Positions 3,702 to 41,011 of a stretch of DNA of 48,922 nucleotides are shown one piece after another (position 1 is the stretch's first letter; every line of letters begins with the position of its first letter). Under the pieces are notes generated by a model. That model saw only the letters and a program-made list of their open reading frames with translations. It had not been told where the DNA came from and searched no databases. Location: the IMG/VR virus record IMGVR_UViG_3300009124_000030, positions 1 to 48,922 of that record. One strand, written 5' to 3'. The position numbers were made by a program, and so were the translations under genes. Source of the DNA: a virus.

Positions 3702-4103
3702 TCAGTTTGCTTTCTTAGCAGCCCTTGCGTTGTCAAAATCCTGCGTCATCTGCATCATCTTCTGCTTCATACGCTCTTTGGACTTTGCCTTAGCATCAGA
3801 ATCATCTGGCTTGTCACCACAAGATGCTTCAGTTACTTCAGTCTCTTCCTTCTTGATATCCTGACCAGGCTCATACCACTTGCCATCACCGTCAGAGTCT
3901 TGCCAACGCTTACCTGCTTTAGCATCAGCGATATGCTTTTCTTTTGCTTTTTTCTTAGCAGCTTCCTTGAGTGCTTCTACACTACTTTGGATTCTACTTC
4001 TATAAGTTTCAGACATAAGGTCCTCTTTTCTTGGATTGATGGTAACATTACCCTTCTTTTTGGTCTTCAGGGAAGACCTCTCGGAATTGCCTACAGGTTT
4101 CAT
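3702..4103 (-). CDS. Small acidic/basic protein with Ca-binding-like DxDxDG loop
   Basis: A 133-residue protein if read from the ATG at 4103, which overlaps the upstream stop (ATGA). An internal ATG at 4016 (product starting MSETYRSRIQSS, 104 residues) has an excellent SD (AGAGGA) and may be the real or a second start. The central segment KRWQDSDGDGKWYEPG is an EF-hand/dockerin-like DxDxDG loop, a common motif in cyanophage structural proteins. Flanks are Lys/Glu-rich helices. No enzyme motif. It is probably a virion-associated protein, by context. Confidence 0.7.
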   Translation of the reverse strand: MKPVGNSERSSLKTKKKGNVTINPRKEDLMSETYRSRIQSSVEALKEAAKKKAKEKHIADAKAGKRWQDSDGDGKWYEPGQDIKKEETEVTEASCGDKPDDSDAKAKSKERMKQKMMQMTQDFDNARAAKKAN

Positions 4104-5206
4104 TCCATCTCTCCCATTGCCGACAACTCAGCATCTGAGAAGAGTCCCGAGTCATACAGTTTATTTATAAACTCCTCATTCTTTGCTTTGAGGTTTGCCT
4201 TACGATACTGGAGATCAGCACGAGTGCCTCTGTCCATCTTACCTTGGGACTTGGGTTTAGTCTTGCCACCTACATCAGGTTGCATACCAGGGTTTGCTGC
4301 CTTGACTCTACGACCATGGGTGTATTCTGCACCACTCATCTTGGAGTCGCCAGAAACCATCTTACCACCAGAGGAGCGGGAGTCAGCATACTCTTTGTCA
4401 GACTGACCGTGCTTACCCTTGTAACCTTCCTCTACTTCTACTTCTTCTTTGTAGTTGTTCTGATGCTTAGGATCTTTTCCAATACGCTCAAATCTTTCGT
4501 CTTCCTTCTGGCGAGAAATTGCAGATACAATCTTTGAAGATTTGTTCTGTGCGTCTTCTTTCGCTTTACCTTTGGAGGAGAGGGATGTACGTGCTAGGTT
4601 TCCTGCACGGCGATACATCTTAGTCTCTTTGCTCTTGTCGATAGGCTTGTAACCCTCTTCGACTTCCTCTTCCTTGACACAGTTGGGGACATCTTTGCCG
4701 CCCTTATTCTTAGTGCCACTTGCTTGGTATCCGTCCCAACACTTGCTAGCACCCACATTCTTGCGTGCTTGCTTGAGACCTTCAAGCATTTCTTGATGGA
4801 GGTCATCGATGTCAACACCAAGATAACCTTCCTTGGTAGTTACTCCCAAGTCTGCTGCATCCTTAGCAGTCTTCTCACCTTTCTTACCAACAACAATGTA
4901 ACGACCGTCTGCTTTCTTCCCAGTGATCAGCATCGACTGCCCACCAGACTGGACAACACGACCAACGTTACGATCATCACCGTGCTCTCTCTTCTTCTTA
5001 GCAACAGCATCACGATCCATTTGGAAACCCGCGTATCCTTCAATAACAGGCTCGTATGCATCGAGGACTTCCATCACCTTCATGACACCTTCATGGAGTC
5101 TTGCAGCAGTGGGAAGTTTATCTTCTTCGATTGCTTTGAGGATTTTGGTTTGCTCGGACTGACTGTAGTTCATCAGTGCAGCGGAAACCAGCATTTCTAA
5201 AGTCAT
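4100..5206 (-). CDS. Conserved cyanophage protein with repeated EGY segments, probable virion protein
   Basis: A 368-residue protein. The N-terminal ~60 residues are helical. The middle carries a Trp-Asp-Gly-Tyr/GTKNKGGKDVPNCV motif (residues about 155-177) that recurs in cyanophage virion proteins. The second half is highly charged, low complexity and probably disordered. Short Glu-Gly-Tyr repeats recur (VIEGY, TKEGY, EEGYKP, EEGYKG). A late promoter motif lies 27 bases upstream. Function is not known; the late promoter and company suggest packaging in the virion. It could be a scaffold-like or injected protein, but nothing in the sequence decides this. Confidence 0.75.
   Translation of the reverse strand: MTLEMLVSAALMNYSQSEQTKILKAIEEDKLPTAARLHEGVMKVMEVLDAYEPVIEGYAGFQMDRDAVAKKKREHGDDRNVGRVVQSGGQSMLITGKKADGRYIVVGKKGEKTAKDAADLGVTTKEGYLGVDIDDLHQEMLEGLKQARKNVGASKCWDGYQASGTKNKGGKDVPNCVKEEEVEEGYKPIDKSKETKMYRRAGNLARTSLSSKGKAKEDAQNKSSKIVSAISRQKEDERFERIGKDPKHQNNYKEEVEVEEGYKGKHGQSDKEYADSRSSGGKMVSGDSKMSGAEYTHGRRVKAANPGMQPDVGGKTKPKSQGKMDRGTRADLQYRKANLKAKNEEFINKLYDSGLFSDAELSAMGEME
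4162..4169 (-). promoter_or_regulatory. TATAAATA late-promoter match inside the upstream gene
   Basis: A perfect match to the T4 late promoter core TATAAATA on the minus strand, inside the C-terminal codons of the 368-residue gene. It lies 58 bases before the ATG at 4103 and 145 before the alternative ATG at 4016. It could serve the DxDxDG gene, but a chance match in coding DNA is possible. Confidence 0.35.
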
Positions 5207-5232: not shown

Positions 5233-6348
5233 CTATTTAGTTTCGGCAGTTTTTCTAATAGAAGCATTGAATTCACTAAACTTCCAAGGCTTCTGTCCTG
5301 GTGTCATGTTTTGCAATGCCTGACGATACTCATCAGTGCCTGCTTTCCAGGTGTTACCACTACCATCATCGGCACTGTAGTTGCTCTGATCCTTTGTGGT
5401 ATCAGCAGCAACTGCTTGCACTTCAGCATCAGACACCTCAGTGACATGCTGCAACCAGGCACGATGCTCACCACCCAGACCATCCTCCATGATGATGTAG
5501 TTAGGACCACGATGGACGATCTTACCAATCATACCACTGTCATCATGCTCTACGATTGCACCAATCTTATAGATCTGATTGAGCATATAGTAGTCACGGA
5601 AGGTATCGAAGTCTAGTTTAGGAGCATACTCCCACACTGAGTGCTCATGAATCTCACTCTTCTTCTTAGACTTCTTAGGTGGAGGTGTCATCCCTTGGAT
5701 AACATCTTGCATCAACGCTTGTGAGTGCTTTGCTGAGTAACCTTTTGGCATTCCTGCATGAAAGGAGTCGTGGTCACCACCCTGTGCGTGGGAGCGCATC
5801 TTGCTGGCACTAAGATTCTCAACAGGATCATCGCTATCATCAGCACGAGCACCTGCAGACTTGATGTTAATAGACTTGAAGTCATAATGTACTCCATTAT
5901 ATTTGTTAGCAAGAGTTTCAAACTCCTTTACTCTATCATCACCAACCACCATAGTGACATGCTCATGCCCTTCATCATGGAGATCTCTGAGGACATCAAA
6001 TACATTTCTATGCGCTTCGTTGTTTTGAATAGCATCCTTATGATGCTTAAACATCTTACGCATATGCTCTACTTTTTTATCAGCCGATAGAGGATTTTTC
6101 TTATGGTCCTGACTTCTGCTGGGGTAGATACGATAGTTACCTGAGTCTCCTCCGTGCGCTTTGACCGCATCCAGTAACTTACCATGACCAGCGTGAGGAG
6201 GGTTAAACCTCCCAAAAGTAATGGCAACATGCTTGTCTTCTAACTTCTTGTTTTGGGCAGAAGAGGACTTGCCCTTGGATGAAGTCGCTGGCTTCTTGGT
6301 CTTTGCGGCTGCTTCTGCTGCCTCTCTAATGAATTGAATAAATCTCAT
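5233..6348 (-). CDS. HxGH-type nucleotidyltransferase (cytidylyltransferase-like) with C-terminal SH3/KOW-like domain
   Basis: A 371-residue protein. Residues 46-55 read GRFNPPHAGH, the HxGH signature of nucleotidylyltransferases that move a nucleotide monophosphate onto a phosphate acceptor (NMNAT, PPAT, CTP transferases). LSASKMR at 179-185 matches the second signature (ISxTxxR). The N-terminal 40 residues are Ala/Lys/Ser-rich. The C-terminal part has a small beta domain (KIGAIVEHDDSGMIGKIVHR) resembling KOW/SH3 modules. The ATG at 6348 overlaps the stop of the ligase-like gene (ATGA), preferred over a TTG three codons upstream. Substrate unknown. NAD metabolism or nucleic-acid end processing are both possible; the neighbours favour the latter. 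Confidence 0.82.
   Translation of the reverse strand: MRFIQFIREAAEAAAKTKKPATSSKGKSSSAQNKKLEDKHVAITFGRFNPPHAGHGKLLDAVKAHGGDSGNYRIYPSRSQDHKKNPLSADKKVEHMRKMFKHHKDAIQNNEAHRNVFDVLRDLHDEGHEHVTMVVGDDRVKEFETLANKYNGVHYDFKSINIKSAGARADDSDDPVENLSASKMRSHAQGGDHDSFHAGMPKGYSAKHSQALMQDVIQGMTPPPKKSKKKSEIHEHSVWEYAPKLDFDTFRDYYMLNQIYKIGAIVEHDDSGMIGKIVHRGPNYIIMEDGLGGEHRAWLQHVTEVSDAEVQAVAADTTKDQSNYSADDGSGNTWKAGTDEYRQALQNMTPGQKPWKFSEFNASIRKTAETK
5234..5240 (-). promoter_or_regulatory. Putative late promoter CTAAATA
   Basis: CTAAATA on the minus strand, 27 bases before the ATG at 5206. It overlaps the TAG stop of the nucleotidyltransferase gene. Spacing matches the other late motifs in this window. Confidence 0.55.
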
Positions 6349-7541
6349 TTGCCCCAATCTTTAGCGACGGTAAAGTTTGCTCTGGAAAACTCAAGTCTAT
6401 CAACAAGTTTGATGGCAGCGCCATCTTTAATAGCCACAAATCCTTCTGGACTTGTCACTCGGTAACCATTCTCGTCCTCCAAGAATGTACCTACTCCTTC
6501 AATTTTCTTGAGTTTATTTATCACTTGCTCCTTAGCAGTAATCAAATTCTTGAAACCACTAAGTGCGGAAATCATGATAGATTTGTTACTATTTAGGTAT
6601 TGAATTGCCTTGGTCTTACGATCCTGCCATTCCTTCTGTGATTTAGGGGTCTTCTTCTTGACAATCTCTTGGTCATACTTGTCAGTTACAAATTTAACAT
6701 AGTCTCTTGCCATACCCTCAGCGGTGCCAACCTTACCACTTCGGATAACTTGGTTGAAATAGATCTTGAATAGTGCAGGAGGAGAGAATGACTGAGGACC
6801 CTCTGCTTTTTGAATCTCATTCAACCACTTACGTCCGCCATCAAGGTTACGCTTTGCTGTGGCGATGCTGTTGTTGAGACGATTCACTTCACCAGGGGTG
6901 AAGTTTGCCATGCCGTTGACATTCTCAAAGGTAGATGAGAAGACAGCAACATCTTTGACTCCCTGCATACCACTGACATCGACACCGAATCCAGCACTCA
7001 TTTCACCAATAGTAGGACCTGAATATGTGGTGTGAAATACGATACCCAGCTTACTAGAAGCAACCTTCTTACCCAACTCAGAGTACTTAGGAATCACATA
7101 AGTGATGGTGTTGGGTTTGAATCTGTAGCATGGTTGTCCCTTCATCGCAATGACATCAGGACGTTTAGTATAGAGCAGATCTCCCTGCACAACTCCTTTA
7201 ATGGGCACCTTCTTCAACTGGTCTAGACACTGCTTCATGATCTGATTAAGACTACCACTATACCAGTGGTCAATGTCAGCATGAGAATAACAAATCTTAG
7301 GGGTTGTCTTGTTGAAGACAGACTTGTTACCCACAAAGAAGAGACCAGTCTCAGGGTCAGTGCCACAGATAATAGCAGGAGCACCGTCCCACTTGACAGT
7401 CACCTTGGTGTTGTTACCACCCTTTCCAGAAGACAGCATGTCCCTGAGGGACTGCAGAAAGTTGAGAGCGTTGGTAGCACCAGCGTATCCTTGGTTAAAG
7501 ATGTCGTCTTCTAGGTGCTCTAGGTGTGTGTTTTTTGCCAT
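6345..7541 (-). CDS. Ligase-like covalent nucleotidyltransferase, cyanophage family
   Basis: A 398-residue protein with the motif order of the covalent nucleotidyltransferase (RNA/DNA ligase and capping enzyme) superfamily. Motif I is KWDG at 50-53, with Lys50 as the candidate AMP-accepting lysine. Motif III-like QGDLLY is at 119-124, motif IV EGFV at 366-369 and motif V-like IKLVD around Lys378. This suggests ATP-dependent adenylylation and nucleic-acid end joining. The spacing between motifs III and IV is unusually long, with an inserted helical region (about 205-340). It is coupled to the downstream HxGH enzyme and lies seven bases from the upstream nuclease-like gene. The family is usually left as hypothetical in cyanophages; the ligase call is my inference from motifs. 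Confidence 0.75.
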   Translation of the reverse strand: MAKNTHLEHLEDDIFNQGYAGATNALNFLQSLRDMLSSGKGGNNTKVTVKWDGAPAIICGTDPETGLFFVGNKSVFNKTTPKICYSHADIDHWYSGSLNQIMKQCLDQLKKVPIKGVVQGDLLYTKRPDVIAMKGQPCYRFKPNTITYVIPKYSELGKKVASSKLGIVFHTTYSGPTIGEMSAGFGVDVSGMQGVKDVAVFSSTFENVNGMANFTPGEVNRLNNSIATAKRNLDGGRKWLNEIQKAEGPQSFSPPALFKIYFNQVIRSGKVGTAEGMARDYVKFVTDKYDQEIVKKKTPKSQKEWQDRKTKAIQYLNSNKSIMISALSGFKNLITAKEQVINKLKKIEGVGTFLEDENGYRVTSPEGFVAIKDGAAIKLVDRLEFSRANFTVAKDWGK

Positions 7542-7548
7542 GACCTTA

Positions 7549-8559
7549 TTATATCTCCTCTGCGCCGCTGCGGTTTCTTACGAGTGCCACTGGGTAGATT
7601 GCCACACGGGCTCCGTTGTAACGTCTGCCATCGATATCAAATCCTCTGCCTGCCCTATATGTAGCAGCGAATGCTGCACGGTATCCACCAGTAGAAAAGT
7701 ACTGTGTGTCACCATTCCAAGAGACATGATCAGAGAAGTCTAAGTTGAAACATGCTTCCTCTCCCCTCTTGGGTTTGAGTATGGGGTTACCTTGAGCAAT
7801 CATATTCACATTATCAATACCATACTTGCCACCATATGAAGGTCCGTAAACAGACTTATTGATTAGGTCTTTATTTGACACATAGGAATACACTGGATTG
7901 CTTAGTTTGTCTCCAACGATATACCCAGCAACTTTTCTCAGGAAGTTTTTAACTTCAGGATCATCATAGATAAGAGTTGGATTACTAGCACTACCAGACT
8001 TAGGAGAGACACCACCATATTGCTGATATGCTGCAGGACCACCTGCCTTCTTATGTGAGATGAAGATTACATCCTTCCCTTTGGAATCAACAATGGCAAA
8101 GTCTGCCTTCGCTTCTCTACCCAAGACCTTCTCAGTAATGTTTCTGACACCTACACAGTTTGGGAAATCCCCACTAGGTGTACATATTTTAATAGGACCC
8201 AGTTGTTTAACTAGGTCCTTAATGAGTTTATCTAAGTCCTTAATAGCAGCTTCTTCTGCTGCCATGACATTTGTTTTTGTAGGTTTCCTGATTTTATTGA
8301 GGGCAACATACCCTGTCTTGGATCCTACTTTTACTTTGGCAACTTTCAACCTACCAACAGTGTCTTCGGAATTATCTGCCAACTTAAACTCAGTGCCTGC
8401 TTCCAGCACACCATGAGTATCTTTCTTGTTTGCTTTGAAGAAAGTAGCATTCATTTTGTCTTCGACTTTCAGCGTGAGGTCTTTCCACATGCTGTTGTTT
8501 TTGACATACTTATCGAATGCACTTTCTCCAGATGTTGACTTGCCTGATAGGGTTGCCAT
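7549..8559 (-). CDS. Conserved cyanophage protein, possible nuclease-like fold
   Basis: A 336-residue protein. Residues about 45-95 form a small beta domain of SH3-like character (GVLEAGTEFKLADN then TGYVALNKI). The central part contains ADFAIVDSKGKDVIFISHKK: Asp153 and the Ser-His-Lys at 168-170 resemble the D-(x)n-(E/S)xK core of PD-(D/E)xK nucleases, with Ser in the acidic position as in some restriction enzymes. The C-terminal region is Gly/Tyr-rich. It is first in a tight three-gene run with a ligase-like and a nucleotidyltransferase gene, under a late promoter motif. The nuclease reading is tentative; it may instead be structural. Confidence 0.7.
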   Translation of the reverse strand: MATLSGKSTSGESAFDKYVKNNSMWKDLTLKVEDKMNATFFKANKKDTHGVLEAGTEFKLADNSEDTVGRLKVAKVKVGSKTGYVALNKIRKPTKTNVMAAEEAAIKDLDKLIKDLVKQLGPIKICTPSGDFPNCVGVRNITEKVLGREAKADFAIVDSKGKDVIFISHKKAGGPAAYQQYGGVSPKSGSASNPTLIYDDPEVKNFLRKVAGYIVGDKLSNPVYSYVSNKDLINKSVYGPSYGGKYGIDNVNMIAQGNPILKPKRGEEACFNLDFSDHVSWNGDTQYFSTGGYRAAFAATYRAGRGFDIDGRRYNGARVAIYPVALVRNRSGAEEI

Positions 8560-8583: not shown

Positions 8584-8590
8584 TATTTAG
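8584..8590 (-). promoter_or_regulatory. Putative late promoter CTAAATA
   Basis: CTAAATA on the minus strand, 24 bases before the ATG at 8559. It contains the TAA stop of mazG. It would start a late transcript for the nuclease-like, ligase-like and nucleotidyltransferase genes. Confidence 0.55.
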
Positions 8591-40161: not shown

Positions 40162-40169
40162 TATTTATC
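40162..40169 (-). promoter_or_regulatory. Putative late promoter GATAAATA before gp22
   Basis: GATAAATA on the minus strand, 39 bases before the gp22 ATG, partly overlapping the end of the gp21 gene. It would give extra transcript for gp22 and gp23, both needed in large amounts. Confidence 0.6.
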
Positions 40170-40818
40170 AATATAGATTTTTCAGGAATGAATGAAACGC
40201 GGAAAGTTTCATCTCTTCCAGTTGATTGCGGTGTGCATTATCGATTCGATTCTTAATCTGCTCGATACTTTGCTCTTGGATTGCGCCTCCAGCATACACC
40301 CACTCTTTTCCTTCCATAATTCCATTGACAAAAGCGTCAGGAGCAGAAGGATCTGCCACGATATCTGCGGCGGTTGCTAGCATGAAATCATCAGCGACAA
40401 TTTTCATACCATTTTCTTCCCTGATAGATCCAAGACCTCTAGAGGAAACGCCAAGTTTCACACCTTCATCAAGGAGTGACTTAGCAATGTTGCCCATAGG
40501 GGTATCAAGAATTCTTGCCTTACCAACAAAGTTGTTACCCTCTCTTTGCAGAGAAGTGATAAGATGAGACACGCGGTCGAGATTGATAGTAGGACCATCG
40601 GGATGACCCAACTCTCCAAGTGCGCGTCCTGCCTTAACGTAAGACTCGTTATATTTAGTAACTTCTCTCTCAAGAGTTTCTACAGGATACATCCGACCGT
40701 TGCGGTTTTTGATGGCACCTTGAAGAAACACACCCTCAATGAAGTGATTCTTCTTACCATTCTTACCTTCGGTAATAACTACCTTAGCGGATTCAATCTC
40801 CTCTCTGATCAGTTTCAT
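40168..40818 (-). CDS. 21: Prohead core protease gp21
   Basis: The serine protease that cleaves scaffold and capsid proteins. It has 216 residues from the ATG at 40818, chosen for the SD (GAGG eight bases upstream); the reading from 40920 would overlap the previous gene and lacks support. Catalytic His72 lies in ELGHPDGP and the Ser in GVSSRGLGS (Ser125 or Ser126), the herpesvirus-assemblin-like arrangement. It overlaps the upstream acidic gene by 26 bases. Confidence 0.93.
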   Translation of the reverse strand: MKLIREEIESAKVVITEGKNGKKNHFIEGVFLQGAIKNRNGRMYPVETLEREVTKYNESYVKAGRALGELGHPDGPTINLDRVSHLITSLQREGNNFVGKARILDTPMGNIAKSLLDEGVKLGVSSRGLGSIREENGMKIVADDFMLATAADIVADPSAPDAFVNGIMEGKEWVYAGGAIQEQSIEQIKNRIDNAHRNQLEEMKLSAFHSFLKNLY

Positions 40819-41011
40819 CTGGTGTTTCCTCGGTTTCGGGTGTAGCTTCAGGTTCTTCAGGTTGGGTAAACATTGTTTTACCCACGTCTTGCTTCTTTGC
40901 GTCAATTGCGTCAACCGCAAGATTCTTCATAGCAGTATCCACATAGTCAGACAGGTCTTTCTGACCTGCAAACAATGCGTTTACAATGTCGCTCGCAGAT
41001 TGTGTAGGCAT
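40793..41011 (-). CDS. Acidic prohead core protein (gp67/68 position)
   Basis: A 72-residue protein. The N-terminal half is helical (SASDIVNALFAGQKDLSDYV); the C-terminal half is Glu/Pro/Thr-rich and disordered (EEPEATPETEETPDETDQ). In T4 the gp67 and gp68 core proteins lie between gp20 and gp21, and this gene occupies that place. Sequence similarity to them is not certain. A late motif lies 22 bases upstream. Confidence 0.72.
   Translation of the reverse strand: MPTQSASDIVNALFAGQKDLSDYVDTAMKNLAVDAIDAKKQDVGKTMFTQPEEPEATPETEETPDETDQRGD

Follow-up and report, generated by a model that had tools for sequence, protein, structure and literature searches.

A late gene cassette of a T4-like cyanophage that may supply head-packaged enzymes for nucleic-acid end processing

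In phage T4, ipII and ipIII are internal head proteins packaged via a capsid targeting sequence (PMC3012670, PMC10229621, PMC9391042). Proteins resembling nicotinamide mononucleotide (NMN) adenylyltransferase (NMNAT) were reported in the virions of S-SCSM1 and S-CBWM1 (PMC9602691, PMC10665884). Reviews of phage RNA repair and of nicotinamide adenine dinucleotide (NAD) systems describe Rnl1, Rnl2, RtcB, HAD phosphatases and NadM/NadR, suggest packaging of some ADP-ribosyltransferase and Nudix enzymes and, in the parts consulted, do not mention the gene pair described below. Here, three adjacent genes were analyzed in the IMG/VR virus record IMGVR_UViG_3300009124_000030 (48,922 nucleotides, the window), a T4-like cyanophage encoding gp43, UvsX, gp41, MazG and a T4-type head set that includes a gp21-type protease. 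All features given here by coordinates lie on the minus strand. Gene A (7549..8559, 336 amino acids, phrog_13937) encodes an SH3-like N-terminal domain and a KxD...SHK...QQ nuclease-like core; gene B (6345..7541, 398 amino acids) a ligase-like covalent nucleotidyltransferase of DUF6267 (PF19782); and gene C (5233..6348, 371 amino acids) an NMNAT-like HxGH protein bearing a small domain at its C-terminus. We tentatively propose, as a plausible reading that still falls short of probable, that A, B and C form a late cassette of enzymes that process nucleic-acid ends, and that one or more of them would be loaded into the head and injected.

The cassette resembles the T4 IPI-IPIII/Alt system in the ipII/ipIII-type N-terminal tag (M, an aromatic residue, then [FY][ILV]xE), in late genes, in the reported presence of C orthologs in the virion, and in variable cargo beside a conserved tag. 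It differs in that its cargo resembles nucleic-acid and NAD enzymes in an operon, and removal of the tag is only predicted for C. With T4 Pnkp-Rnl1 and broader sets of RNA-repair enzymes in phages (PMC7824862), it shares the ligase-type motifs of B and, among relatives, the presence of a HAD phosphatase belonging to the polynucleotide kinase or Swiss-army-knife RNA-repair family. However, B falls outside Rnl1 and Rnl2 when judged by profile, a kinase domain was not seen, T4 rnlA and pseT carry no head tag, and an NMNAT-like partner is apparently new to such sets. Like NadM, NadR and NatV of phage NAD salvage, which also give its best profile matches, C has an HxGH motif and an SxSxxR-type end motif; unlike them, it scores under the family cut-offs, is head-tagged and linked to a ligase-like gene, and has no visible Nudix, kinase or NadV partner. 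Gene A shares with PD-(D/E)xK nucleases an Asp (D153) and a Lys (K170) that are invariant and 17 residues apart, preceded by a helix and surrounded by strands in the model, and is unlike these nucleases in having Ser for D/E at the first xxK position.

In the literature searched, outside which lay most subscription journals and preprints, DUF6267 was unmentioned and the combination of head-tagged nuclease-like, ligase-like and NAD-type proteins was found nowhere described. Earlier reports of NMNAT-like proteins in virions offered no explanation in terms of targeting; the tag-based one is the new point put forward here. The original prediction, a note made by a model from the sequence of the window, missed both the head-targeting tag and the published virion detection of C. 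Hundreds of phage genomes contain B and C, yet no function has been assigned to B and the name given to C is misleading; DUF6267 now gains a concrete enzyme hypothesis.

Orthologs of gene C in virions and a probable head-targeting tag

Orthologs of C were detected in the virions of at least three cyanophages, S-SM1 (PMC3037559), S-SZBM1 (S-SZBM1_140; PMC9146016) and S-CREM2 (PMC10665884). S-SZBM1_140, from the closest of these phages, is 69% identical to the C protein of the window and carries the tag. The N-terminus of window C reads MRFIQFIREAAEA, in which MRFIQFIREA resembles the T4 internal-protein tag, MKTYQEFIAEA, found at the N-terminus of ipII and ipIII. The T4-type capsid-targeting-like tag of C, MRFIQFIREAAE, with its IxE site, lies at 6313..6348. 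Packaging of C, a prediction for the phage of the window, is well supported.

The tag was written as the pattern M-x(0-4)-[FY]-x-x-[FY]-[ILVM]-x-E. In a T4 stretch of 36 genes, this pattern hit ipII and ipIII and none of the other 34, and in the window it hit C alone among 48 main genes. T4 Alt and IPI fall outside the strict pattern, so some true targets are missed. Among nonredundant relatives, the tag was present in 61/96 C proteins, 51/142 B proteins and 18/118 proteins from the slot upstream of B that gene A occupies (the A-slot), compared to 40/827 other genes (Fisher p = 4e-43, 6e-23 and 9e-5, respectively); because the pattern was written after the sequences had been seen and the relatives are not independent, these p values overstate the strength of the difference. 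Safer arguments are the match in T4 and the contrast among genes of one and the same locus. With the pattern slightly relaxed, tagged A, HAD and B stood in a row at one locus (L235), and B, C and HAD were all tagged at two others (L221 and L263). The B protein of phage DLP6 is also tagged. The 40 other genes with a tag-like N-terminus (loci L008-L280) are candidates for further injected proteins. The pattern offers a sequence rule by which other injected proteins may be sought in T4-like phages beyond coliphages, and the tag turns scattered proteomic matches to virion NMNAT-like proteins into a testable delivery system.

C is of low abundance in virions, and the product of the neighboring gene D (4100..5206, 368 amino acids) is a homolog of S-SZBM1_139, which was also detected in the S-SZBM1 virion (PMC9146016). 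Both observations would suit a reading in which the three proteins serve the head or its assembly and their enzyme motifs are no longer important. We consider this very improbable, since the candidate catalytic residues of all three proteins are invariant over wide divergence, which is unexpected for dead enzymes.

The conserved B-C pair

The product of gene B matched the DUF6267 profile with an E value of 2e-130 and was aligned with 90 relatives that share 35-75% identity with it. Across these 90 sequences, the residues that make up KWDGAP, FFxxxK, QGD, FxPNTxxY, HTxYxG, EGxV and KLVxR were invariant or nearly so. Motif I (KWDGAP, 7377..7394) includes an invariant KWDG with Lys50, the candidate nucleotidylated residue; motif III (QGD, residues 119-121, 7179..7187), motif IV (EGFV, residues 366-369, 6435..6446) and motif V (KLVDR, residues 378-382, 6396..6410) were equally constant at QGD, EGxV, K378 and R382. 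In the AlphaFold model (predicted local distance difference test score 86, predicted template modeling score 0.80), K50 follows a strand at 45-49, QGD lies within a strand, EGxV and K378 sit at neighboring strands, and a helical insert at about 216-345 separates motifs III and IV. This order of motifs is that of ligase-type nucleotidyltransferases. The four covalent nucleotidyltransferase motifs that the original prediction had read in B, as well as the conservation of Lys50 that it had proposed to check, were thus borne out. In a viral structure library, the first functionally named match after DUF6267 and B-C proteins was the RNA ligase of Atu_ph07 (E = 1.7e-4, probability 0.99), and one of the 90 B members touched RNA_lig_T4_1 (E = 0.017). 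Alignment and model together suggest, with fair confidence, that B works as a ligase-type nucleotidyltransferase. At loci L005, L096, L097 and L099, B takes a shorter form of about 300 amino acids without the helical insert; in the two phages of L097 and L099, it sits away from C, among small genes.

The HxGH nucleotidylyltransferase site claimed for the third gene was recovered in C as HAGH (residues 52-55, 6184..6195), with G54 and H55 invariant in 28 sequences. The residues invariant across the family also include G46, R47, P50, P86, K92, G136, D138 and R139, together with S180 and R185 of the SxSxxR-type motif, SASKMR (residues 180-185, 5794..5811), which was aligned in the place of the superfamily ISSTxxR motif. 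The nearest NCBIfam models were those of NMN and nicotinic acid mononucleotide adenylyltransferases, TIGR00482 matching 16/28 members and TIGR01526 15/28. C remained below the curated NMNAT cut-offs (28.6 bits vs. 112 for TIGR00482) and passed the cut-off of the superfamily model CTP_transf_like only; its few, weak PDB profile matches included the NMNAT 1f9a (E = 0.065). Judged by these profiles, C looks NMNAT-like and was not filed as a member of the NMN adenylyltransferase family. Cytidylyltransferase was rejected as the leading reading of C, since the best specific profiles are NMNAT models. The C-terminal small domain of C is apparently a separate gene in several cyanophages (L106, L107 and L108), and the label "ribonucleotide reductase" on short genes after C was rejected, such genes probably being misannotated split C-terminal domains. 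In the enterobacterial jumbo phages phAPEC6 and GAP32 (L100 and L101), a short C homolog was found beside an N6-adenine methyltransferase, with B not nearby.

Genes B and C are closely linked. In 142 nonredundant B loci, C lay downstream in 117, the locus ended too soon in 21 and C was lacking in four, which gives 117/121 assessable loci. The two are a single protein of 728 amino acids in metaG-MbCM1 and are also fused in an S-PM2 entry of the viral structure library (591 amino acids, named for its C domain); such fusion is direct evidence for a shared role. The claim of fusion draws on metaG-MbCM1 and this library entry; the older S-PM2 record, in which B is seemingly split, was not used as evidence. 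For the A family (87 loci, redundant set), B was adjacent in 45 and nearby in eight, the locus ended early in nine, and B was absent from 25, of which 11 had a C motif within 400 nucleotides after A. These counts define B-C as a conserved pair and A as a frequent, replaceable neighbor. The idea that the three genes act as one set gained support for B and C, which are linked, sometimes fused, and accompanied in the operons of relatives by a polynucleotide kinase-type HAD protein, but not for A, which is no fixed partner and only one occupant of a hypervariable slot.

The main rival explanation is NAD restoration, in which C, injected as an NMN adenylyltransferase, would restore or shift the NAD+ of the host at an early stage of infection, B would share the same cofactor chemistry, for example by using or making adenylylated nucleotides instead of sealing nucleic acid, and A would be unrelated cargo. 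The best profile matches of C, including the weak one to 1f9a, fit this explanation, and a role in NAD metabolism was already proposed for virion NMNAT-like proteins (PMC9602691, PMC10665884). However, C scores far under the NMNAT cut-offs, NadV or another salvage gene was not noticed in the cassettes examined, and the end-healing phosphatases that co-occur in relatives would be unneeded for NAD salvage. We regard this explanation as doubtful. The NMNAT-like appearance of C sustains the NAD salvage that the original prediction had offered as its alternative. Sealing of nucleic acid is favored because HAD end-healing phosphatases lie in the same operons; should NAD+ be used by B and regenerated by C, sealing and NAD restoration may amount to a single process.

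Gene A, its variable slot and the proposed end processing

Foldseek matches to SH3 domains marked the N-terminal domain of A as SH3-like. In its core, K151 and D153 (K151-x-D153, 8101..8109), S168-H169-K170 (8050..8058) and Q179-Q180 (8020..8025) were invariant in 29 sequences; among these residues are the Asp153 and Lys170 whose conservation had been proposed as a check. These residues lie on a helix and strands of the model in an arrangement compatible with PD-(D/E)xK enzymes. On motif and secondary structure, A is nuclease-like and was not filed as a PD-(D/E)xK member. One relative of A, in S-CAM7, is labeled "type-2 restriction enzyme CviJI"; neither our analysis nor the literature on CviJI substantiated this label, and it was set aside.

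The position upstream of B is hypervariable, being filled in relatives by about 118 mutually dissimilar proteins (L112-L280). A D...SxK motif was found in 57/115 A-slot proteins vs. 33/534 other genes. Other occupants included a few HAD phosphatases, homing-endonuclease families, GIY-YIG, ATP-grasp and structural proteins. All seven HAD phosphatases tested matched the polynucleotide kinase family phrog_415, and one HAD protein matched the RNA-repair model HAD_SAK_1 above its cut-off. The dissimilarity of the occupants, their enrichment in D...SxK, the presence of homing-endonuclease and other families, and the head tag on a subset would also fit a weapon of competition, in which fast-changing A-slot nucleases attack the nucleic acid of the host or of a co-infecting phage while B and C protect or repair the phage's own. 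This seems improbable: nuclease activity in the slot is deduced from the motif, some slot proteins are plainly no nucleases (phosphatases, structural proteins), and no mark distinguishing self from non-self was identified.

Returning to the end-processing proposal, we infer the catalysis, substrates and cooperation of the three proteins as follows. C would be a virion protein, as published proteomes demonstrated for its orthologs. By means of the T4-type N-terminal tag, C would enter the prohead, as would B and the A-slot protein in many relatives, and the gp21-type head maturation protease (40168..40920) would be expected to cleave the tag off. B would then form an enzyme-nucleotidyl intermediate at Lys50 and seal breaks, most likely RNA breaks, that host defence or a nuclease of the phage itself had introduced; where a HAD phosphatase is present, the 3' ends would be healed first. 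C might make NAD+ or a related dinucleotide, either replacing NAD+ consumed by defence or serving as the nucleotide donor of B. In the weakest step, A, as the occupant of a rapidly changing slot, would be a nuclease of PD-(D/E)xK type directed against DNA or RNA of the host or of competitors. A bolder version, which we consider unlikely, is that a widespread T4-like group packages a full repair set, consisting of a nuclease, a 3'-phosphatase, a ligase of a new family and an enzyme that makes NAD and so regenerates the cofactor of the ligase, inside the head and injects it with the genome. If this were true, breaks made by host defence would be mended ahead of viral gene expression.

Several results weigh against the end-processing proposal. 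B and the A-slot proteins were undetected in the S-SZBM1 virion proteome (PMC9146016), although this agrees with the tags, because only C is tagged in that branch. Carry-over is possible in phage purified on cesium chloride, as the authors themselves stated (PMC10665884). A and B of the window carry no tag, though relatives of both do, and A is often absent or is present without B. In the fold search of the PDB, B matched no solved ligase significantly; adenylation domains of NAD-dependent DNA ligases and an RNA ligase were within the first 40 matches, at E values above 1. Compared by hhalign with the T4 Rnl1 and Rnl2 profiles, B scored no better than reversed decoys, also after the helical insert was removed, and was therefore rejected as a member of either family. 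When PDB sequences were searched with A and with B, no convincing relatives emerged. No solved nuclease was matched by A, whose whole-model PDB search yielded SH3-type and unrelated matches only. The interpretation in the original prediction was partly supported: its ligase-like call for B gained support from the invariant motifs in ligase order and from the viral RNA ligase neighbor, and its nuclease call for A draws on motif and secondary structure.

Layout of the locus

Downstream of gp41 and MazG, the minus strand carries genes A, B and C, and after them D, E and the gene of a head protein. A and B are separated by seven nucleotides, and the stop of B overlaps the start of C as ATGA. The start of C is most likely the ATG at 6348, which corrects the TTG at 6357. 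A late-promoter-like box, CTAAATA, was found at 8584..8590, 25 nucleotides before A; the whole window contains 14 such boxes compared to 5.7 expected, 13 of the 14 on the coding strand. No box stands directly in front of B or C, and one lies inside B at 6590, so that the three genes share a single box rather than having one apiece. The open reading frames, their spacing and this box agree with the earlier description of three adjacent, coupled genes with a common late promoter motif. Gene D contains repeated acidic segments of EEVEVEEGYK type, which match parts of other phage families.

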